DNA of 64,000 nucleotides from the IMG/VR virus record IMGVR_UViG_3300032315_001657, positions 1-64,000 of that record, one strand, 5' to 3'. This DNA comes from a virus. This document shows, piece after piece, positions 8,399 to 63,331 of the stretch. Made by a program: the position numbers and the translations under genes. The notes under the pieces are model-generated. The model ran no database searches. It was given only the letters and a program-made list of their open reading frames with translations, and was not told the DNA's origin. Numbering within the stretch: position 1 is the first letter of the stretch; each line of letters starts with the position of its first letter.

Positions 8399-8472
8399 GT
8401 TGCTCGTGGTGTAGCGGTCTAGCATTACTCACTGTGACTGAGTCGGGGCGGGTTCGAACCCCGTCGAGCAAC
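8399..8472 (+). tRNA. tRNA-His (GTG)
   Basis: Acceptor TTGCTCG/CGAGCAA with the His-specific extra G(-1) at 8399 opposite C73. Anticodon loop CTGTGAC on stem ACTCA/TGAGT; T loop TTCGAAC. Confidence 0.93.
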
Positions 8473-8941: not shown

Positions 8942-9014
8942 TGCAGGGTCGACAAGTGGTTAAGTCAGTAGGCTCACAACCTACCATGCATGGGTTCAAA
9001 TCCCATCCCTGCTA
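8942..9014 (+). tRNA. tRNA-Val (CAC by anticodon)
   Basis: Anticodon stem GTAGG/CCTAC with loop CTCACAA; T arm ATGGG-TTCAAAT-CCCAT. The acceptor pairs GCAGGG/CCCTGC. Keeping T8 in place makes position 1:72 a T-T mismatch, or else the acceptor has six pairs. No CCA encoded. Confidence 0.8.
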
Positions 9015-9023
9015 TTTTTTAAT

Positions 9024-9094
9024 ACGTATATAGTGTAATGGTAGCACAATTCTCTCCAAAAGAATTTGTCAGGGTTCAAGTCCTTGTATACGTG
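9024..9094 (+). tRNA. tRNA-Trp (CCA)
   Basis: Acceptor ACGTATA/TATACGT, anticodon stem ATTCT/AGAAT with loop CTCCAAA, T loop TTCAAGT, discriminator G and encoded CCA (9095-9097). Confidence 0.93.
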
Positions 9095-9102
9095 CCATTT
9101 TC

Positions 9103-9173
9103 GCCGCAGTAACATAAAAGTAATGTGTTAGTCTTCCAAACTAAAGAACTCGGGGCAGTACCGTGCTGCGGCA
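9103..9173 (+). tRNA. tRNA-Gly (TCC), non-canonical elbow
   Basis: Perfect acceptor GCCGCAG/CTGCGGC, D stem ACAT/ATGT with loop AAAAGTA (no GG), perfect anticodon stem TTAGT/ACTAA with loop CTTCCAA. The T stem CTCGG/CCGTG has one mismatch and carries the loop GGCAGTA. Same altered elbow as tRNA-Ile at 8234. Confidence 0.78.
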
Positions 9174-9182
9174 TATTTTTAA

Positions 9183-9256
9183 GGAGTTGTAGCTCAGTTG
9201 GTTAGAGCATCTGACTGTCACTTAGAAGGTCGCGGGTTCGAGCCCCGTCAGCTCCG
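9183..9256 (+). tRNA. tRNA-Asp (GTC)
   Basis: Acceptor GGAGTTG/CAGCTCC, anticodon stem TCTGA/TTAGA with loop CTGTCAC, T loop TTCGAGC, discriminator G and encoded CCA (9257-9259). Confidence 0.93.
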
Positions 9257-9265
9257 CCATTTTTA

Positions 9266-9338
9266 GGACTGTAGCTCAGCGGAATTAGAGCATCTGAATA
9301 CGGATCAGAAGGTCAAAGGTTCAAATCCTTTCAGTCCT
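9266..9338 (+). tRNA. tRNA-Arg (ACG)
   Basis: Acceptor GGACTG/CAGTCC, anticodon stem TCTGA/TCAGA with loop ATACGGA, T loop TTCAAAT. A34 would need deamination to inosine by the host TadA. Confidence 0.9.
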
Positions 9339-9342
9339 ATAC

Positions 9343-9370
9343 TTGTTTTTTATAGTTCACTAGCTATAAT
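9343..9370 (+). promoter_or_regulatory. Strong sigma70-like promoter
   Basis: TTGTTT, 16-base spacer, perfect TATAAT. The -10 ends 6 bases before the ATG at 9377, so the bilin reductase transcript may start on the start codon. Confidence 0.65.
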
Positions 9371-9376
9371 AATGGT

Positions 9377-10024
9377 ATGAACTCACAAGAACAGATAAAA
9401 GATTATTTTGTCAAATTATCCGAAACTTTAAGCAAACATTTCGGATCTCATACTAATAAAGAGTTACCGTTTCAAAAATTAGAACACGAATGGTTAAATT
9501 ATTTTTATAACTCTACTACTTTTAGACACATACATCTTGAGTACTATAAAACTGATAAAATTTGTGCTCTGCATTTAACAGTGATGCCTACACCATCTTT
9601 TGATTACCCTATTCTTGGTTTTGATATGATTGCTCTTGGAGATAAAATTACTGGGCTATTTTTTGATATAACACCAACAATTACACAATGTGTAAATTTA
9701 TCTCAAAATTTAATTGATTTAAATAAAGATATAAAATCAGTAAAAAGACCGCTGCCTGAATGGGCTGATATTTTTAGTAATAACTTTGTATGTGTATCTC
9801 CTGATGTAGATGAACTTCCTGTTATATTTGATAATGTTGTTTCTTGTATAACTAAATATATATCTCACTCAAAATCATTAGTAACTAAAAACATTGAAAT
9901 ACAAAACAAATATTGTCAAGGGCAAAAGAAAAATCAAAAGACATTTAAAGCTTTAATAGCCGAAGTTGGTAAAGAAAATGCTCAATTGTTCTTTGATGAT
10001 TATCTTTTTCCAGAAATAAAATAA
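9377..10024 (+). CDS. Ferredoxin-dependent bilin reductase (PcyX/PebS-like)
   Basis: A 215-residue protein matching the FDBR family, which reduces biliverdin IX-alpha to phycobilins with electrons from ferredoxin. Visible family pattern: HIHLE (51-55), ALHLTVMPTPSFDYPILGFD (64-83) and LFFDITP (94-100). The Asp in GFDM (D83) matches the conserved catalytic Asp of PcyA. Cyanophage PebS and the shorter phage-borne PcyX are known viral members. No heme oxygenase lies in the window, so biliverdin must come from the host or another locus. It has its own strong promoter after the tRNA array. Confidence 0.8.
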   Translation: MNSQEQIKDYFVKLSETLSKHFGSHTNKELPFQKLEHEWLNYFYNSTTFRHIHLEYYKTDKICALHLTVMPTPSFDYPILGFDMIALGDKITGLFFDITPTITQCVNLSQNLIDLNKDIKSVKRPLPEWADIFSNNFVCVSPDVDELPVIFDNVVSCITKYISHSKSLVTKNIEIQNKYCQGQKKNQKTFKALIAEVGKENAQLFFDDYLFPEIK

Positions 10025-10037
10025 CCAAGCACATTAC

Positions 10038-10934
10038 ATGCTTAAAAAAATTAAATTAACATGTAATTGGTGTGATGATCAGTCTCTTTATGAGCGTTTT
10101 AAACGGGTTTATATTAGTAAGTTTAATGAAGATTCTGAATTTGAATTTACTAATTCAAATGAATATAATTTTTTAGTAATTATAAATTACTCTAGTTATG
10201 AAATAAATTTTCCTAAAGAAAGTACGTTGGGTATAATTTTAGAGCCAACCTGGAGACCCGAATTTGTTGAGTCGAAATGTTTAAAAGATCTGTGTCAACA
10301 TATTTTGTTTCATAAGCTACAAGAGGACTCTCAATTCATACAAATTTGTGGTTTGCTACCCTTTCATTTAGACTATAATGAAGGAGAAGATCTAGATTAT
10401 TATATCAATAGCTCTTTTTCAAACAGCAAAAACAAATTATGTAGTATCATAGTATCCCATTACGATGAAAATACTGCTCATAGCTATTTTAAACAATCGA
10501 AAGAATGTCTGTATTCTCAAAGAATGAATCTTGTTAGAAATATTTTGCAAACTGATTTAGATATTGATATCTACGGTAATTATTGGGAATATTCATCTAT
10601 TAAAGATCCAAGAATTAAGGGTAGTTTGTATAATAAAAAAGATGGTTTATTAAATTACAAATATTCAATCGCTATAGAGAACTGTATAGAAGAGGGATAC
10701 TTCACCGAAAAACTTACTGATTGTATTTTAACAGATACTATACCTATTTATTACGGTTGCCCGAACATTGAAAAATATTTTTCAGGTATACCGGTTCTAT
10801 CTAATTTAAATGATACAGATCTCATAAAAAAAGTAATCAATAGTAATACCTTTAAACCAATAAGAGATAAAAAAATATTAGCTACAAAATACAATCTGTA
10901 TAGTGCTATTATAAACTATTTTAAAAAAATATAA
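10038..10934 (+). CDS. Alpha-1,3-fucosyltransferase-like (GT10)
   Basis: A 298-residue protein. The C-terminal donor-binding signature of GT10 is clear: YKYSIAIENC (208-217), YFTEKL (221-226) and IPIYYG (235-240). GT10 enzymes move fucose from GDP-fucose to sugar acceptors. The N-terminal half is a divergent acceptor domain. It starts 13 bases after the bilin reductase and is probably co-transcribed. The likely role is decoration of a virion or host glycan, by inference. Confidence 0.85.
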   Translation: MLKKIKLTCNWCDDQSLYERFKRVYISKFNEDSEFEFTNSNEYNFLVIINYSSYEINFPKESTLGIILEPTWRPEFVESKCLKDLCQHILFHKLQEDSQFIQICGLLPFHLDYNEGEDLDYYINSSFSNSKNKLCSIIVSHYDENTAHSYFKQSKECLYSQRMNLVRNILQTDLDIDIYGNYWEYSSIKDPRIKGSLYNKKDGLLNYKYSIAIENCIEEGYFTEKLTDCILTDTIPIYYGCPNIEKYFSGIPVLSNLNDTDLIKKVINSNTFKPIRDKKILATKYNLYSAIINYFKKI

Positions 10935-17524: not shown

Positions 17525-18016
17525 ATGGGCCCAACCTCGATTGCACCTGATGAAATTTTAGATATTAAAAAACAATATTACTCTTGGAATCGTTTTCATG
17601 AACTTATTAATAGGGTTAAGAAACAAATTGATATTCCACCTAATTTAATTGTATCTATTGGTAAAGGGGGATCCATTCCCGGTGTTGTTTTAGCTGAAAT
17701 GTTTGAGTGTAATAATATAAATTTAGGTTTAAAATCCTATAAGGGACACTCTCGGGGTAACATTCATGAGTATCAATCTATTGGCTGTTTTAATGGGTTT
17801 AGAGATGCTAATATTCTTATTGTTGATGATCTTGCCGATTCAGGTGAAACTTTTCTTTATGCGGTTAAAAAGTTTAAAGGTAATGGTTGTGAGAATATAA
17901 GAACAGCCTCAGTATTTTATAAGCCTTGTTCAAGGTTTAAGCCTGACTATTTTGCAGAAGAAGTGGATAGCAAGATCTGGATCGTGCTGCCTTGGGAGAC
18001 TATGGAAGTTCAGTAA
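17525..18016 (+). CDS. Phosphoribosyltransferase
   Basis: A 163-residue type I PRTase. The PRPP-binding signature is ILIVDDLADSGET (97-109), preceded by the SIGKGGSIPG loop (44-53). It resembles hypoxanthine/xanthine-guanine PRTases, which join a purine base to PRPP. In a phage with deazaguanine genes it may feed guanine nucleotide pools, which is inference. It converges with the Nudix gene, overlapping it by 17 bases. Confidence 0.8.
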   Translation: MGPTSIAPDEILDIKKQYYSWNRFHELINRVKKQIDIPPNLIVSIGKGGSIPGVVLAEMFECNNINLGLKSYKGHSRGNIHEYQSIGCFNGFRDANILIVDDLADSGETFLYAVKKFKGNGCENIRTASVFYKPCSRFKPDYFAEEVDSKIWIVLPWETMEVQ

Positions 18017-27132: not shown

Positions 27133-27765
27133 TCACATATTAGCTAGCAGAGAACCATCTTCTTCATGAAAGAACTTACCGGAAGGTTTAATATACATAG
27201 GTATCTGTTCAATACGTAGATCTGGAGGACCTTCAAGTGTAATAACAGCAGGACAATCTTCTCTTGGAAAGAAAATACCTTGATTCTTTTCATACGTACC
27301 GACAACAGCTCTAAAAAGATTGTCAATTTCTTGTCGATAAATAGGATCTAAAGCTCGGCCTTTTTTAGGTACTATTGTTATTTCCTCTCTTAACGGTATA
27401 TAAAATATAATATCAAACATTTTTATGGCTTGAAAAGCAATATGCTTAGTATCCATAATAAACTCATCAGATACTTTGCCCTTTTCATTAAGCCAAAGGG
27501 AATAAACAATGTTATCTATAACACAGCGATCAAATACTAAAAAGTCATCTCCTTTTGCAGTAGCATTTTGAGTATCATCTATAATTGCATTTAAAATAGC
27601 TTTTTGAGAATCAGCTGTACCCTCTTCGTTATTAGTTACCTTACCAGTCTTAATAAGTTTACGATAAGTCGACTTAACCTCTTTGTACATAGGCCATCTT
27701 TTAATAAATTCTTTAATTAGTGTACTCTTTCCGTTACACTGTGTACCCATAAATGCAATTTTCAT
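27133..27765 (-). CDS. P-loop nucleotide/nucleoside kinase-like (NadR/AAA_28 type)
   Basis: A 210-residue protein with Walker A GTQCNGKST (7-15) and a DRCVID block (about 79-84) as in NadR-type kinases. It lies 2 bases downstream of queE. A distant relative is at 56326, next to queF. It may phosphorylate a nucleoside or nucleotide; a link to the deazaguanine pathway is only suggested by position. Confidence 0.7.
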   Translation of the reverse strand: MKIAFMGTQCNGKSTLIKEFIKRWPMYKEVKSTYRKLIKTGKVTNNEEGTADSQKAILNAIIDDTQNATAKGDDFLVFDRCVIDNIVYSLWLNEKGKVSDEFIMDTKHIAFQAIKMFDIIFYIPLREEITIVPKKGRALDPIYRQEIDNLFRAVVGTYEKNQGIFFPREDCPAVITLEGPPDLRIEQIPMYIKPSGKFFHEEDGSLLANM

Positions 27766-27767
27766 AA

Positions 27768-28526
27768 TTATACCTTAAGGGCTTTATCCCAGATTACCAA
27801 CTGTAATCTTGGAGAAAAGTTTACATGCATAGCTTTAGCATATTCTGCTACAGCAGTACTTTTTTCAACGTGCTCTTCTCGAGAACCACAGCAGGGCATA
27901 AACCAAATACGGAATAAAGGTACGTTAATACCTAAATCATCATAAACATACTTACGCCAAATTTCTTCAATATCTTTATCAGAATTAATAACAAATTTAA
28001 ACCCTGAACCATTTGTAACATGCCATTTCAACACTTCAGGTTTATAAGTTTTCTCCTCCGGATCTCCGTTTGAAATAAGCTTAGGAGAGGTAGTAAAGGT
28101 TGCTTTAAACTCTTGCCGCCAACGAGGAGAGGGGGTTAAAGTAGCATTAGTTTCAAAGTCGATACGAGGTATAAAATGATACCTGTCTCTAAAAGCTTCA
28201 ATAAACTTTAGCAATTGCTTTTCCTGAATAAAGGGCTCTCCACCTGTAAGTTTAAGAATAGCATTATGGCGAAGATGTTCAATATAGTTATTATTCTCCA
28301 TTAACTCAAAGACCTCAGTAAAGGTCTTTTTATTCTTTACCGACCAAGATACAAATGAGTCACAACCATTAGGTGAATCCTCTGATGCAAAGCCAATACA
28401 AGTTAAATTACACATAGACATCCGCATAAAAACAGATGGCTGACCAATATATTCCCCTTCACCTTCAATGGTATAAAATACCAAATCGTCAGATAGAAAT
28501 AATGTTTCTTTATCGTTATCAATCAT
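27768..28526 (-). CDS. queE: 7-carboxy-7-deazaguanine synthase, QueE-like radical SAM
   Basis: A 252-residue protein. Start YTIEGEGEYIGQPSVFMRMS (18-37) is the QueE opening. Cysteines at 39, 43 and 55 provide the iron-sulfur cluster, with a longer gap than the simple Cx3Cx2C, as known in some QueE. KLTGGEPF (92-99) and NFSPRLQLVIW near the end are typical. QueE converts 6-carboxytetrahydropterin to CDG. Neighbours: QueD-like (28711) and a P-loop kinase. Confidence 0.85.
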   Translation of the reverse strand: MIDNDKETLFLSDDLVFYTIEGEGEYIGQPSVFMRMSMCNLTCIGFASEDSPNGCDSFVSWSVKNKKTFTEVFELMENNNYIEHLRHNAILKLTGGEPFIQEKQLLKFIEAFRDRYHFIPRIDFETNATLTPSPRWRQEFKATFTTSPKLISNGDPEEKTYKPEVLKWHVTNGSGFKFVINSDKDIEEIWRKYVYDDLGINVPLFRIWFMPCCGSREEHVEKSTAVAEYAKAMHVNFSPRLQLVIWDKALKV

Positions 28527-28529
28527 AAA

Positions 28530-28736
28530 TTAACCTCCAATAATAAATTTAAAAAGTAAAGAACAGATTACAATAGCAATCCATCCAATAGGATTAAACA
28601 ATAATAGATAAAGTAAGGCAAAAATCAAGACAGATACTAAAGATAAAAATTCCCAAAAACCTATTTTACGATCTTTAAGCCATACTTGTTCAAATTTAGC
28701 TGTAATTACTTCAAGGTCTTTTTTCATAGATTGCAC
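28530..28736 (-). CDS. Small two-span membrane protein
   Basis: A 68-residue protein with hydrophobic helices at about 25-46 and 48-66 after a charged N-terminus. It sits between queE and the QueD-like gene and overlaps the latter by 26 bases. No family recognised. Confidence 0.5.
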   Translation of the reverse strand: MQSMKKDLEVITAKFEQVWLKDRKIGFWEFLSLVSVLIFALLYLLLFNPIGWIAIVICSLLFKFIIGG

Positions 28737-29157
28737 TATTTAGCTCATGTTCCCACACTTCAACTCTATTAAGCCAGCAACGACCTACAGACATATCTCT
28801 TATCATAGGATCAACAGTCTTAAAACACCATTCAGCCGTCTTTTCAATACCTACACCATCCATAACACGAAGCTGGCAACCTCCATTATCCGCTAATTGA
28901 ATAAAACTAGGTAGCAACGGATCATCTTGAGCAATACAAAGAGTGTGATCAAATTGATCCTGTAATAACCTTTTAACGTCTTTTAAGCCTCCAAAATTTA
29001 TAACCCAATTCTTATCATCTAATCCCTGACATCCAAACCAAAACTTAGCTTTAAGCTGATATCCATGTACATATTTACAATGAGTACCTTCAGCTCTCCA
29101 CTGCCTGAAGGCACAAGAGCCAAGTTCTATAATCTTAGTTGATTCAAATCTAACCAT
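28711..29157 (-). CDS. queD: QueD/6-pyruvoyltetrahydropterin synthase-like protein
   Basis: A 148-residue T-fold protein of the phage/proteobacterial branch with SCAFRQW (14-20), THCKYVHGY (25-33), VINFGGLKDVK (53-63) and FDHTL (69-73). Relative to classical QueD, which binds zinc with one His and an HGH pair, the first His is absent and HGH is HGY, so the metal site differs. It probably supplies carboxytetrahydropterin for QueE, but activity is uncertain. Confidence 0.75.
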   Translation of the reverse strand: MVRFESTKIIELGSCAFRQWRAEGTHCKYVHGYQLKAKFWFGCQGLDDKNWVINFGGLKDVKRLLQDQFDHTLCIAQDDPLLPSFIQLADNGGCQLRVMDGVGIEKTAEWCFKTVDPMIRDMSVGRCWLNRVEVWEHELNSAIYEKRP

Positions 29158-52381: not shown

Positions 52382-54928
52382 GTGTATAGGAACGCATCAT
52401 ACAACCCTCGAGAAGGAACTGTCTTCTTACGGACATGGACTGAAGATGGAGATAGAATCGATACCGATGTCCCCTTCACTCCCTATCTCTTTACAGAGCA
52501 TAAGGACTCTAAAGACGCTACATCTATCTTCAAGACACCTCTTAAGAAGCATTATTTCAAAAATACCTTTGAACGTTCTAAGTTCGTTCAAGAAACTAAG
52601 AATCCGAGACTATTTGGTAATCTATCTGTAGACCAGCAATTCTTAGTTGATCAGTTTAAGGAAGATGTACATAAACCTGAATTTAGTCAATTCCCTCTTA
52701 AAGTATTCTTTATTGATATTGAGACCTACTCTCCAGGTGCCTTCCCTATACCGAAGTACGCTAAAGACCCAGTTAATCTTATAACAGTACTAGACACACT
52801 TAGCGGTAAAATACATACTTGGGGTCTAAGACAGGACTATAAACCTAAGCTTGACAATGTCACATATTATTGTTGTAAGACAGAAGGAGAGCTATTTGAG
52901 AGGTTTGTTAATTTCTGGAAAAAAGACCCTCCTGATATTTTAACAGGTTGGAATACTGAGCAGTTTGACATTCCCTATATTATTAACCGTGCTAAGAACT
53001 TACTTGGAGAAGACTTTATTAAACAGCTCTCTCCAGTAGGTCAGGTACATTATAGAGAGAACTTCGCTAAGTTTGGTAAAGAGATGGGTAGGTGGTATAT
53101 TTCTGGTGTTAGCTGTTTAGATTACATGGAAATTTACAAGACATATTCTAAGGGTGATAGAGAGTCTTTCTCTCTTAACTATATTTGTGAATACGAGCTT
53201 GGTGAAGGTAAACTTGCTATTAATGCTACAAACCTTTCTTCCCTATCTGAAACAGACTGGGAAAACTTTGTAGATTATAATATTCAAGACGTTGATCTAC
53301 TTCGTAAGTTAGAAGAGAAGCTAAACTACTTAAAAATTATTCGTTTGTTGTCTTATAAGGGGTGTACTAACTTCGAAAGAGCATTAGGAAAGGTATCTAT
53401 TGTAACTGGCGCTATGACTCTCCAGGCACAAAAGCAGGGATATGTTATACCTACCTTTAAAAACGAAACTACTAGGGAATCTTTAGAAGGGGGTTATGTA
53501 AGAGAGCCTGAAAGAGGTCTAAAGGAAGCTATTGTATCCTTTGACGTTAACTCTCTATACCCTAATACCATTATTACTCTTAATATTGGATCTGAGACTA
53601 AGCTTGGTAAAATTGTTACTGGAGACCCTGAGTACGATAAAGAGGTTGAAATTAAACTCGAGTCTGGTGGTATGTTTAAAGTAACTACTGCTAAACTGAA
53701 GAAGTTCTTGACTGATGAAAACGTGGCTCTATCAAAGGCTGGTGTTTTATATTCTCAAAAGTTTAAAGGGGTTTGTCCGAATCTAATTAATAGTATTTAC
53801 GATGAGCGAGTTTATGCTCGTAATGAAATGCTTAAACTAAAAAAGACAAAGCAGAAGGATAAAGATACCACTAGTAAGATTCAGTACTTTGATACCCTTC
53901 AATACACGTTAAAGATTCTTCTCAACTCCATCTACGGTACGTTTGCTAATAAGCACTCGGCCTTTATGGATATTGATAACGCTTCATCTATTACCCTAAC
54001 GGGTCAAGCAGTTGCTAAAGCGGGCGGAGCTATTATTAATGCTTGGGCTAAAGATAAGTTTGGAGTTACTGAGTCTCTTATCTTAGCAGGAGATACTGAC
54101 TCTCTATATACAACAATTCAACCTATTCTCAATAAACTTAAACTACCACTTGTTAAGGACGGCAATATTACAACCGAAGTCCATAAGATCGTAGATGCGA
54201 TGGAAAAGCATCTCAATACTGAGATTATTAACTGGGCTAAGGCTGATCTTAATTCTGCTGATCCTCGCTTTGTTTTTAAACGAGAAGCTATTGCTGATGT
54301 AGGTTCGTTCTTAATGAAGAAGCGTTATATTCTTCATATTTTGGATGAAGAAGGGGTTCCTACTAATAAGTTTAAATATGTAGGCGTTGAACTGGCTCGT
54401 TCAACAACCCCTAAGGAAGTTAAGGCCTTGATTAAGAAAACCATTGATACAGCGTTCTTAACCAAAGATGTTAAAAAGACTAACGAAGTCTTTCGAGAAG
54501 CTTACGATCACTTTAAAACTCTTGATATCTCTGAAGCGGCCTTTCGTAAAGCTGCTAAAGAGCTTGAGAAGTATTCTGCAGATGCCTCTTTACATAAATT
54601 TAATAAAGGCACACCCTGCCATGTTAAAGCTGCTTTGGCTTACAACTTTCTTCTCGAGAAAATGAATATACAGAAAAGATATGAGAAGATTACTTCCGGA
54701 CAAAAAATTAAGTTCTTCTATGCAATGAAAAACCCTTATGGTTTAGATGCCGTAGGGTTTAGTAGTGAGTATCCGAAGGAGTTTCACGAGATTAAGATTG
54801 ACTATGACAAGATGTTTGGTAAGATTGTTGTGCCACCTATTGAAGCAGTTTATGATGCAATTGGATGGAGGATACCTCAGATTGGTAAAGAGGTTCAAAC
54901 AGATTTATTTGATTTATTTGGAGACTAA
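52382..54928 (+). CDS. 43: Family B DNA polymerase gp43
   Basis: An 848-residue replicative polymerase from GTG 52382. The proofreading exonuclease has IDIET (D112, E114), LTGWNTEQFDIPY and a later YNIQDVDLL. Polymerase motif A SFDVNSLYPN (386-395), motif B KILLNSIYGTFAN, motif C GDTDS (D571, D573). Slightly shorter than T4 gp43 (898). It works with clamp gp45 (63763) and gp32. Confidence 0.95.
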   Translation: MYRNASYNPREGTVFLRTWTEDGDRIDTDVPFTPYLFTEHKDSKDATSIFKTPLKKHYFKNTFERSKFVQETKNPRLFGNLSVDQQFLVDQFKEDVHKPEFSQFPLKVFFIDIETYSPGAFPIPKYAKDPVNLITVLDTLSGKIHTWGLRQDYKPKLDNVTYYCCKTEGELFERFVNFWKKDPPDILTGWNTEQFDIPYIINRAKNLLGEDFIKQLSPVGQVHYRENFAKFGKEMGRWYISGVSCLDYMEIYKTYSKGDRESFSLNYICEYELGEGKLAINATNLSSLSETDWENFVDYNIQDVDLLRKLEEKLNYLKIIRLLSYKGCTNFERALGKVSIVTGAMTLQAQKQGYVIPTFKNETTRESLEGGYVREPERGLKEAIVSFDVNSLYPNTIITLNIGSETKLGKIVTGDPEYDKEVEIKLESGGMFKVTTAKLKKFLTDENVALSKAGVLYSQKFKGVCPNLINSIYDERVYARNEMLKLKKTKQKDKDTTSKIQYFDTLQYTLKILLNSIYGTFANKHSAFMDIDNASSITLTGQAVAKAGGAIINAWAKDKFGVTESLILAGDTDSLYTTIQPILNKLKLPLVKDGNITTEVHKIVDAMEKHLNTEIINWAKADLNSADPRFVFKREAIADVGSFLMKKRYILHILDEEGVPTNKFKYVGVELARSTTPKEVKALIKKTIDTAFLTKDVKKTNEVFREAYDHFKTLDISEAAFRKAAKELEKYSADASLHKFNKGTPCHVKAALAYNFLLEKMNIQKRYEKITSGQKIKFFYAMKNPYGLDAVGFSSEYPKEFHEIKIDYDKMFGKIVVPPIEAVYDAIGWRIPQIGKEVQTDLFDLFGD

Positions 54929-54943
54929 TTTATACTTTTAACC

Positions 54944-55774
54944 ATGCTTATTTCACATGAAACGCCTGTCTCGTTGTTGCCTTATTCCTGGGGATACAAT
55001 GATTATGATTACTGCTTAGTACATTTGTTACCCGAGAATCAAAAGTACAAAGATTTCTACTTTAAGTCTGTAGAGTATGGACGTAGAGTTCTACTTGATA
55101 ATTCTATCTTTGAATTAGGTACATCCTTTGACCCTGAGCAATTTGCTTACTGGGTTAAAGAGCTTAAACCCTTTGAGTATGTTATACCTGATGTCTTAGA
55201 AGATACTGAAGGTACTTGTGTATCTATGGATAACTTCCTATCGAAGTATTCTGATCTCCCTGGTCGTAAGATTGGGGTGGTGCAGGGTAAAACTTATCAA
55301 GAACTTATCGATTGCTATGATTATATTGCACCAAAGGTAGACAAAGTAGCTATCTCGTTTGATTATTCTTATTATCTTGAGAATTGTGATTGGTCGCAAA
55401 TTAATGTACCTGGCTTTGTTAAGGGACAAGAAGAAAACAAATGGCTCAAATATGCCGTAGGAAGAGTTCAACTACTGGATAATCTTTATGATGATGATGT
55501 ACTTGATGTAAATAAACCTCACCATTTACTTGGTGCCTCTCTACCTTGGGAATTTGCTCTTTATTCTGAAAACTTCTTATCTGAGTATATTGAAACAATT
55601 GATACATCAAACCCGATTGTAGCAGGTATTTTAGGAAAGAAATATGAACCTGAGTTTGGTTTATCGGAAAAGTGGTCAGTAAAGCTTGTTGACTTTATTG
55701 ATGCTGAATTAACTGAGCAGCAAATTACTAATTCGTTTTGGAACATTACTCAATTTAAAAAGCTATGTCGATAA
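54944..55774 (+). CDS. dpdA: DpdA-like DNA/tRNA guanine transglycosylase family protein
   Basis: A 276-residue protein resembling the TGT superfamily branch used by phages to exchange guanine in DNA for a 7-deazaguanine base: VLLDNSIFELG (49-59), YVIPDVLEDTEGT (79-91) and KIGVVQGKTYQEL (about 109-121). DNS and the Asp in PDV are likely active-site elements. It lies between the polymerase and a formyltransferase, which it overlaps by 10 bases, and near queF. Activity is inferred from context and weak motif likeness. Confidence 0.7.
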   Translation: MLISHETPVSLLPYSWGYNDYDYCLVHLLPENQKYKDFYFKSVEYGRRVLLDNSIFELGTSFDPEQFAYWVKELKPFEYVIPDVLEDTEGTCVSMDNFLSKYSDLPGRKIGVVQGKTYQELIDCYDYIAPKVDKVAISFDYSYYLENCDWSQINVPGFVKGQEENKWLKYAVGRVQLLDNLYDDDVLDVNKPHHLLGASLPWEFALYSENFLSEYIETIDTSNPIVAGILGKKYEPEFGLSEKWSVKLVDFIDAELTEQQITNSFWNITQFKKLCR

Positions 55775-56313
55775 AAAAGCCCTGGGTTACTTTATTTTCT
55801 CAGACAGGTTCCGAAATTTACAAGATATCTAAAAAACTTGAACGAGTTCCTGATATTATTGTAACTAATAAACCAAAAGATAAAATTCTTGAAATTAACC
55901 CTAACCTATCTGAAGAGTATCTAGATAGGTTTGTATGGTTACCTAAAAAACCAACTGTAGAAGATTACAAACATGCTATTCCAGAAAGAGCTTTAGTGAC
56001 CCTTCACGGATGGTTAAGAATTATACCGCCTGAAGTATGTGGGCTGTTTGAGATTTATAATTTACACCCAGCGCCTATACATCTTGAAGGTTATGAAAAA
56101 TACAAAGGAAAAGATCCTCAAGTCAGAATCTTCGAAGATAAAGCAAAGTATTCTGGAAACGTAATTCATGAATGTATCCCGGAATTAGATGCCGGAAAAA
56201 TATTAGCTAAAAATCAGTTTGATGTATCTGGCTTTGATTTAGATATGGTGTTTAAATTAACTCATGCAAAAGCTTCTGAACTTTGGAGTAGCTTTTTAAA
56301 GGATAGAGTTTAA
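55765..56313 (+). CDS. Formyltransferase (PurN/Fmt-like)
   Basis: A 182-residue formyl-tetrahydrofolate-dependent transferase domain. The catalytic triad is present: YNLHPAP (N99, H101) and ELDAGKI (D142), with LHGWLRIIPPEV as the preceding strand. It lacks tRNA-binding or other extra domains. Translationally coupled to the DpdA-like gene, which points to formylation of the modified base, such as the aminomethyl group of preQ1; formylated preQ1 has been reported in phage DNA. Phage PurN is an alternative. Confidence 0.75.
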   Translation: MSIKKPWVTLFSQTGSEIYKISKKLERVPDIIVTNKPKDKILEINPNLSEEYLDRFVWLPKKPTVEDYKHAIPERALVTLHGWLRIIPPEVCGLFEIYNLHPAPIHLEGYEKYKGKDPQVRIFEDKAKYSGNVIHECIPELDAGKILAKNQFDVSGFDLDMVFKLTHAKASELWSSFLKDRV

Positions 56314-56325
56314 TATTAAGAAGTC

Positions 56326-56871
56326 ATGAGAGTTTCATTCACAGGTGCTCAGAGTACTGGTAAGACTACTTTACTCAACAAGTGTAAAGAAGTATACAAA
56401 GACTATAAATTTGTTGATGAGGTAACACGTTATGTTCGTAAGACGTATGATGTTAAGATTAATGAGATTGGTGGAACTGAAACTCAACTGTATATTTTAG
56501 CAGAACATATTAAGAATCATTTAAAGCCAGATGAAAATTTGATACTTGATCGTTGTATATTAGATGGCTATGTTTATACAAAATATCAGGTAGAGAATAG
56601 AAAAGTTTCAGAACAAGTCTTACAGGCTTTTAATGGAGTATTTGCTGTTTTAATTGATAAGTTGGATTATATTTTTTATACTGATCCATCTGATGTAAAA
56701 TTAGTTGATGATGGTGAACGTTCAGTGGATTATAATTTTAGATGCGATATAATTGATATATTTGAAGATCTTATTTCGTATAAGATGTCTCCGAAGAATA
56801 GAGAGAAAGTAGTTCGTCTCAGCGGTACTGTAGAAGAAAGAATGAAAACTATAGAAAAATATTTAAAATAA
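56326..56871 (+). CDS. P-loop kinase-like protein (NadR/AAA_28 type)
   Basis: A 181-residue protein with Walker A GAQSTGKTT (7-15) and LDRCILDGYVYT (about 77-88), like the protein at 27133 next to queE. Such folds phosphorylate nucleosides or nucleotides. It lies between the formyltransferase and queF, with its stop overlapping the queF start by one base. Substrate unknown. Confidence 0.72.
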   Translation: MRVSFTGAQSTGKTTLLNKCKEVYKDYKFVDEVTRYVRKTYDVKINEIGGTETQLYILAEHIKNHLKPDENLILDRCILDGYVYTKYQVENRKVSEQVLQAFNGVFAVLIDKLDYIFYTDPSDVKLVDDGERSVDYNFRCDIIDIFEDLISYKMSPKNREKVVRLSGTVEERMKTIEKYLK

Positions 56872-57815
56872 TGAATACAAACCTAAATGATATTGCCTCT
56901 AAGACCTTAGGGTCTTCAGCCTCATACGCCATCTATACAGACCGTTATGATGCTTCACTTCTTAACCCAATGCCTCGAAAGCTAGCTCGCGAAGGATGGG
57001 GTATTAAAGGAGATGAATTTGTAGGCTGGGATACATGGCACTGTCATGAAGCAACCTTTCTTCTTGATAATGGTGCACCAGTTGCTGGAACATTAAAGTA
57101 TGTTTACTCTTCTGATTCAAAGTATATGGTAGAATCTAAGTCTGCTAAACTATATCTTAATACTTTTGATATGTGTAAGATGGGCCAAACTATAGATACA
57201 GCAATTCAAAATTACGAACTACAAGTTAAAGCAGATTTAGAAAAAGTTTTAGAAACAGAAGTATCTGTTAAATTCTTTAAGTCGGGTGAAGACTCCCAAG
57301 GCATCTTCCCTATGTCAGGGTATATTGACCTTCAAGGGTTCTTAGATAAGAGTTTAGAAGATTTAGAAATTACAGACTACAGTGCTGAACGTAATCATTT
57401 AGAGTTTGAAAAAGTAAATTTTGCAGGTATTGGTTATAGTGCAAAAGATAATAAAAAGATTTATGTTAATAAGTTCTTTACAAATGCTTTAAGATCTCGC
57501 TGCAGACACACTAAACAAAAAGATACGGGTACAGCTTTTATCTCTGTTAATACTCTCGATTGCACACTTATTCCGTCGTCTCTATTTAAACAGATTGTAT
57601 CCTTAAGAGAGATTAATGAATTCCATGAGTTCTGTGCTGAAAAACTTTATACAGAAATTATGAAATACCCTGAGGTTGAGTCCTGTTGTGTAACGTTACT
57701 TTACGCACGTAGAGGCTCTCTTGATATTAATCCTTGCAGGGCAACTACTCTTAATATGCTACCACCAGTACTTATCAATCCGAAATACTATACTAATAAG
57801 GCAATGGGACAGTAG
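56871..57815 (+). CDS. queF: 7-cyano-7-deazaguanine (preQ0) reductase QueF
   Basis: A 314-residue, long-form QueF. ESKSAK (88-93) is the substrate-binding block, ALRSRCRHTKQKDTG (206-220) carries the catalytic Cys 211, and FHEFCAE (251-257) supplies the conserved His-Glu. QueF reduces the nitrile of preQ0 to the aminomethyl of preQ1 with NADPH. Its presence indicates that preQ1 (or a derivative) is the base made. QueC, which makes preQ0 from CDG, is not in the window. Confidence 0.88.
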   Translation: MNTNLNDIASKTLGSSASYAIYTDRYDASLLNPMPRKLAREGWGIKGDEFVGWDTWHCHEATFLLDNGAPVAGTLKYVYSSDSKYMVESKSAKLYLNTFDMCKMGQTIDTAIQNYELQVKADLEKVLETEVSVKFFKSGEDSQGIFPMSGYIDLQGFLDKSLEDLEITDYSAERNHLEFEKVNFAGIGYSAKDNKKIYVNKFFTNALRSRCRHTKQKDTGTAFISVNTLDCTLIPSSLFKQIVSLREINEFHEFCAEKLYTEIMKYPEVESCCVTLLYARRGSLDINPCRATTLNMLPPVLINPKYYTNKAMGQ

Positions 57816-62665: not shown

Positions 62666-63331
62666 ATGTTAAGAAGTAAAAAGAAACTCCAATACGCTAA
62701 TCATAACATTCTTCATTCACCTGAAGAAGTTGAAGGGCTTATTAATAATGCTGCAAAGGCTTATGAAGCTTATCTTGATGCTTTAGGCTTTGATTGGCGT
62801 AACGATCCGAATAGTGCTGATACACCTCGACGGGTTGCTAAGGCTTTTGTTACTGATTTAGCTATGGGGTGTTATTCTGCACCCCCTAAAGTAACCGCCT
62901 TCGATAACGTGGATGGTTATGATGGTATGGTTTGTCAGAACAATATCAAAGTTGTTTCAATGTGCTCTCACCATCATGCACCTTTTATGGGTGTAGCTCA
63001 TGTAGCTTATTTACCCGCTAAGAATGGTAAAGTAATTGGACTATCAAAGCTTAATCGTATTGTAGATTGGTTTTCAAGAAGGCCTCAAGTTCAAGAAAAC
63101 TTAACTATGCAGGTTCATGAGTACATTGATCAAGTTTGCGAGAAGAATAAAGGAGTAGCTATATTAATTGAAGCTAATCATACTTGTTGTTCTAACCGTG
63201 GGATTAAGCATGATTCAACTATGAGAACTGCTAGAATGTCTGGTTCCTTTTTAGATGAAAAAGATAATTCAAGGGCTGAGTTTTACAAATTTGTGGAGTT
63301 TGCCCAAAATAATAAAGGACATATTTCATAA
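62666..63331 (+). CDS. folE: GTP cyclohydrolase I
   Basis: A 221-residue enzyme: SMCSHHHAPF (98-107) with zinc ligands C100 and H103, GLSKLNRIVDWFSRRPQVQE (126-145), and NHTCCSNRGI (171-180) with the third ligand Cys. It turns GTP into dihydroneopterin triphosphate, the first step to QueD, QueE and preQ0/preQ1, so it probably belongs to the deazaguanine DNA modification pathway although placed after gene 32. Confidence 0.92.
   Translation: MLRSKKKLQYANHNILHSPEEVEGLINNAAKAYEAYLDALGFDWRNDPNSADTPRRVAKAFVTDLAMGCYSAPPKVTAFDNVDGYDGMVCQNNIKVVSMCSHHHAPFMGVAHVAYLPAKNGKVIGLSKLNRIVDWFSRRPQVQENLTMQVHEYIDQVCEKNKGVAILIEANHTCCSNRGIKHDSTMRTARMSGSFLDEKDNSRAEFYKFVEFAQNNKGHIS

Follow-up and report, generated by a model that had tools for sequence, protein, structure and literature searches.

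What modified base, if any, is specified by the genes that follow the DNA polymerase gene of this T4-like phage? The window analyzed is a stretch of 64,000 nucleotides, positions 1 to 64,000 of IMG/VR record IMGVR_UViG_3300032315_001657. The full record of 75,108 bases is a fragment of a T4-like phage. The window encodes homologues of the replication proteins gp43, UvsX, gp41 and gp32, and terminase and tail sheath genes lie in the record beyond the end of the window. Directly downstream of the family B DNA polymerase gene, gp43 (52382..54928, plus strand; PF00136/PF03104), lies a single cassette on the same strand, encoding a DpdA3-type guanine transglycosylase (54944..55774, 276 aa), a PurN-type formyltransferase (FT; 55765..56313, 182 aa), an AAA_28 P-loop nucleoside/nucleotide kinase (56326..56871, 181 aa) and QueF (56871..57815, 314 aa). 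The folE, queD and queE genes are elsewhere in the window. The gene positions that the initial annotation had given agree exactly with the open reading frames, as does the 10-base overlap that it reported between dpdA and the FT gene (55765-55774). The order polymerase, dpdA, FT, kinase, queF is conserved across dozens of viral contigs, so the arrangement of the cassette is more than chance.

The reading that we favor, with a probability of about 0.78, is that formylated dPreQ1 (fdPreQ1) would replace guanine in the phage DNA. FolE, QueD and QueE, with a QueC that is either outside the fragment or supplied by the host, would make preQ0, and QueF would reduce it to preQ1. DpdA3 would substitute the deazaguanine for guanine, to an extent that is itself part of the prediction. 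The FT would cap the amine, using 10-formyl-tetrahydrofolate as the formyl donor. The product would be 2'-deoxy-7-(formylamino)methyl-7-deazaguanine in the genome, and its presumed role is protection against restriction. The kinase would be a fixture of the DpdA3 system rather than of formylation, most likely acting on nucleotides made or released by the base exchange.

Three genes of the precursor pathway lie within the window. FolE, the GTP cyclohydrolase I of the first step, is encoded at 62666..63331 on the plus strand (GTP_cyclohydroI, PF01227, 164.6 bits) and is 52% identical to FolE of Flavobacterium phage immuto. The minus strand carries the QueD-like 6-carboxy-tetrahydropterin synthase (28711..29157; PTPS, PF01242, 57.9 bits; phrog_2389), which is 41% identical to that of immuto, and the radical SAM 7-carboxy-7-deazaguanine synthase QueE (27768..28526; phrog_2076, 140 bits; NCBIfam QueE families, 51 bits). 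The identities first proposed for FT, QueF, FolE and QueD are borne out by Pfam, and that of QueE by PHROGs and NCBIfam. The QueD of the window has HCxxxHGY where the E. coli enzyme has CxxxHGH, and the upstream His of E. coli is missing; the other DpdA3 phages are alike except CP220, and the metal site may differ from that of E. coli. In QueE, the three cluster cysteines are arranged as CX3C-X11-C, with insert lengths at that place varying among relatives. Directly downstream of queE is a second AAA_28 kinase (27133..27765, minus strand; PF13521, 49.7 bits), a possible member of the pathway; most DpdA3 phages searched have two AAA_28 proteins.

The initial annotation had made preQ1 synthesis conditional on the availability of QueC. 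QueC is absent from the window, from the whole 75-kb record and from the 103-112 kb fragments of close relatives. It is encoded by immuto, by CP220 and by a 218-kb relative, G011, which keeps the window's gene order from gp46 to gp32, with gp43, dpdA, FT, kinase, queF, UvsX and gp41 in between. Since this syntenic relative has it, the missing QueC most simply lies outside the window's fragment.

An ESKSxKLYLN-type motif marks the QueF nitrile reductases that make preQ1. The QueF of the window has it as ESKSAKLYLN, together with C211 and D218. Pfam matches are to QueF_N (78.1 bits) and QueF (33.2 bits), and in the alignment to the QueF structure 3bp1 (9e-29), the motif, the catalytic Cys, the Asp and the HE all correspond. 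At least 127 of 128 homologues keep the motif residues, and 125 keep C211 and D218. The protein is a diverged member, scoring 160.2 bits against the 293.45 cut-off of the NCBIfam equivalog TIGR03138, so the assignment as an NADPH-dependent preQ0 reductase rests on the motif rather than on that model. Having kept the nitrile-reductase motif, it should make preQ1. QueF and QueF-L are hard to distinguish by similarity, and dPreQ1 has been found in phages with such genes (Hutinet 2019, PMC6884629).

The dpdA-like product is a DpdA3 by homology. It has no Pfam or NCBIfam match, and its match in PHROGs (phrog_19058, 7e-49) is to a family of unknown function. It is 44% identical to an immuto protein that carries the annotation DNA guanine transglycosylase DpdA (NC_055915) and 40-41% identical to its counterparts in the Campylobacter CP220 group; overall, identity to DpdA of the CP220/immuto type is 40-45%, with 98-99% of the length aligned. 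This places it in the DpdA3 subfamily, and we predict that it exchanges guanine for a 7-deazaguanine. Residues D52, S54, D83 and D220 and an HLLG motif are invariant in 140 homologues. More distant comparisons did not establish homology to TGT, which weighs against the favored reading: hhalign of DpdA3 against TGT gave a probability of 4.7%, which is not significant, but the DpdA1-TGT control failed too (2.2%), and a fold search with a moderate model (pLDDT 75) matched TIM barrels with no TGT in the top 50. The zinc site of bacterial TGT, CxCxxC..H, is present in the E. coli enzyme and absent from the window's DpdA3. We considered whether this loss points to a nucleotide substrate and rejected the idea, since the DpdA of phage 9g lacks the zinc motif too. 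Two general searches were also negative: no DNA-level relatives of the cassette were found among annotated phages, and PADLOC returned no match. Palindrome avoidance, which is not diagnostic, was not seen within the window.

The FT carries a Formyl_trans_N domain (31.2 bits against a cut-off of 26.1). The initial annotation had called its catalytic residues N99, H101 and D142 intact; all three are there, and they are invariant in 122 of 122 relatives. This domain with catalytic N, H and D, in company with DpdA3 and QueF, is the pattern expected of a dPreQ1 formyltransferase (DpdN), and QueF accompanies 108 of the 109 FT-bearing DpdA3 loci. The one locus that departs from this, L200, is an incomplete 9.6-kb contig in a metagenome bin; it begins 0.8 kb before dpdA and carries dpdA and FT, with neither QueF nor kinase in its 9.6 kb, and QueF was not found in its metagenome bin. 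The protein could instead be an ordinary PurN copy that raises purine synthesis and has no tie to a modified base. It is nearer PurN than Fmt, PurN is its best named family, its solved relatives are PurN, and it has a GS loop at the position of PurN's GSN loop. Yet it falls below both equivalog cut-offs, scoring 26.8 bits against 150.1 for PurN, and it is locked between dpdA and the kinase and goes missing together with QueF, which makes a housekeeping PurN very improbable. We predict, partly from what was reportedly described in 2023, that the FT formylates a preQ1-type amine, namely the aminomethyl of preQ1 or of dPreQ1, and formylation may precede or follow the base exchange.

The joint absence just mentioned comes from a survey of related loci. 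Profile scans of viral contigs found at least 530 stretches with DpdA and 544 with FT, from which the best 80 of each were taken. A set of 140 DpdA3 loci had enough context; loci were chosen by similarity, so that the fractions are not population frequencies. Of these 140, 108 have FT, QueF and kinase, 25 have QueF and kinase, six have the kinase alone, and FT alone is found in one (L200). The sister lineages L041-L043, L054 and L055, whose dpdA region is flanked by the same replication genes as in the lineage of the window, have neither FT nor QueF. Since the kinase gene sits between the FT and queF positions, a single deletion cannot remove both and spare the kinase. The joint absence fits an FT that needs the product of QueF, the preQ1 amine, and among the sequence comparisons, it is the best evidence for it, although the weight of the argument is limited by the small number of QueF changes on the DpdA tree, three in all, and by a sign test that is not significant. 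Formylated preQ1 DNA, as first proposed for this locus, is thus supported by the gene identities, the catalytic residues, the gene order and the absence of FT where QueF is absent, but as a proposal it is not new, having reportedly been made in 2023.

The same loci bear on whether the preQ1 is meant for tRNA. The phage has 21 tRNA genes, including all four with GUN anticodons (His, Asp, Tyr and Asn; window positions 8400, 9183, 19997 and 20877), which are queuosine substrates, and preQ1 might be supplied to the host TGT and to these phage tRNAs. In such a role, DpdA3 and FT would serve no purpose or do harm, and the pairing of DpdA3 with the kinase persists where QueF is gone. We consider this use of preQ1 to be highly unlikely.

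Other features of the surveyed loci vary. L005 (7312-7986), L014 (5871-6449) and L018 (5002-5796) have extra ORFs of 190-265 aa that separate dpdA from FT, and a minus-strand ORF lies between polymerase and dpdA in L006, L007, L014 and L018; these insertions around dpdA are probably mobile genes. In L043 (9926-12561), a 356-aa ORF splits the UvsX gene, as an intron or intein would. L091 (8001-16779) has about 6 kb between dpdA and FT-kinase-queF, a gap as wide as was noticed in no other listed locus. A clade with dpdA, kinase and queF and without FT (L070, L073, L075, L086, L097, L103 and L104) has the cassette among apparent virion structural genes, adjoining a gene that resembles the major capsid protein. 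In L199, which is immuto-like and lacks FT, an Amidoligase_2-like gene (8980-9978; below the cut-off) and a GNAT acetyltransferase gene (10477-10926) flank the kinase before queF; their products are possibly alternative caps for the preQ1 amine.

The kinase appeared in the initial annotation as a named but unexplained member of the cluster. It is a real AAA_28 protein (Pfam, 56.2 bits), with a Walker A motif invariant in 146 homologues and INE, TQ and DR motifs that are invariant or nearly so. Its nearest solved folds are NadR, thymidylate kinase and deoxynucleoside kinase, which do not fix the substrate. It is present in 139 of the 140 DpdA3 loci, across all three gene sets (FT and QueF, QueF, or neither). 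In the reverse direction, a scan with a kinase profile gave 61 new loci; 57 of them carry DpdA3, and contig ends truncate the remaining four. In 50,697 annotated phage records, the only phages with this kinase are DpdA3-carrying phages of Campylobacter and Flavobacterium. Of the phages with 9g-type DpdA that were searched, all but one lack AAA_28. Judged by this distribution, no other gene accompanies DpdA3 as constantly as the kinase, which stands outside the formyl branch.

Genes acting on the nucleotide pool also lie near dpdA3. Pyrophosphohydrolases are found within about three genes of it, PRA-PH in immuto and L199 and MazG in phi13:1 and L200. An HD domain protein is encoded just before dpdA in CP220, and in phi13:1, an AAA_18 P-loop protein directly precedes the dpdA homologue. 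With the kinase, these genes raise the tentative possibility that the swap is pre-replicative: DpdA3 would exchange the base of free dGMP (or dGTP), FT would optionally act on dPreQ1-monophosphate, the kinase would phosphorylate the nucleotide in the direction of the triphosphate, and the polymerase of the neighboring gene would incorporate it. This differs from the favored reading only in the stage of the swap, so that the two probabilities are not exclusive, and the same is true of a recycling role for the kinase. The constancy of the kinase whatever the chemistry, its confinement to DpdA3 phages and its near absence from 9g-type phages all speak for it, as does the likeness of FT, GS loop included, to PurN, which itself acts on a ribonucleotide monophosphate. 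A modified dGTP had also been proposed for Campylobacter phages, as noted in Hutinet 2019 (PMC6884629). However, known TGT and DpdA enzymes act on polymers, a review describes DpdA action as post-replicative (PMC12707154), and neither MazG nor HD genes turned up in the record that contains the window or in the close relatives G001 and G003. If the pre-replicative swap proved true, no transglycosylase of this group before DpdA3 would have been known to use free nucleotides as substrate, and a complete replacement of guanine would be explained.

The kinase could also serve recycling, with the exchange on DNA after replication. Each exchange releases one guanine and costs one GTP, and the kinase and a phosphoribosyltransferase would return released guanine to GMP and then GDP/GTP, feeding FolE. 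The window has a candidate in its xanthine/guanine phosphoribosyltransferase-like (Gpt-like) gene (17525..18016, plus strand; PF00156, 54.4 bits), which could possibly salvage guanine released by DpdA, though its link to DpdA is tentative; its best NCBIfam match is xanthine phosphoribosyltransferase at 55.2 bits, far under the equivalog cut-off of 138. Gpt-like genes are also present in immuto, L198 and L199, and PF00156 occurs in 8 of 17 DpdA3 phage records compared with 1 of 7 for 9g-type DpdA, in a set that includes many fragments. Still, no phosphoribosyltransferase was found in CP220 and several others while the kinase is nearly constant, and hosts already have a guanylate kinase, so we regard recycling as rather doubtful. 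The kinase and the pool genes hint, short of proof, at a DpdA3 that acts on free nucleotides ahead of replication or at recycling of the released guanine; the pool genes fit one as well as the other, and the data do not separate them.

Returning to fdPreQ1 as the favored product, the chemistry itself was reportedly described already in 2023, and annotated immuto already shows the same cassette. The present analysis contributes the near-universal link between kinase and DpdA3, which looks new, together with the pool genes and the finding that FT and QueF are absent jointly. Formylated deazaguanine DNA would now extend to T4-like phages that form a large and mostly uncultured group, the FT scan having found 544 related stretches. 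The joint absence of two nonadjacent genes provides a genetic argument that FT acts on the preQ1 amine, and the kinase as a constant partner of DpdA3 makes it testable whether the exchange of guanine happens on DNA or within the nucleotide pool.

Among known systems, Cui et al. reportedly described fdPreQ1, DpdA3 and the predicted dPreQ1 formyltransferase DpdN in 2023. The window shares the DpdA subfamily, QueF and the predicted formyltransferase with that system, in which DpdA insertion is reportedly post-replicative; a constant kinase partner is not known to have been described there. Phage 9g, whose DNA carries dG+ (PMC6884629), likewise has a transglycosylase with FolE, QueD, QueE and a QueC-type enzyme (DpdA/Gat-QueC). 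Unlike the window, 9g has no AAA_28 kinase, and its DpdA has no significant hhalign profile match to the window's DpdA3. Campylobacter phage CP220 (Firehammervirus), in which a 7-deazaguanine replaces dG completely (PMC10273834), has DpdA3 (40% identity) followed by the same kinase (34%), with QueC present, but it has no FT beside dpdA, and an HD/AAA_33 protein is encoded before it. In Flavobacterium phage vB_FspM_immuto_2-6A (immuto), queD, queE, folE, dpdA, a PurN-type FT, the kinase and queF are on one strand, the order dpdA-FT-kinase-queF is identical to that of the window, and QueC is also encoded. The two differ in that the cassette proteins are only 33-44% identical, the polymerase is family A in immuto and T4-type family B in the window, a PRA-PH gene lies just before dpdA in immuto, and queD, queE and folE are adjacent in immuto and distant in the window.
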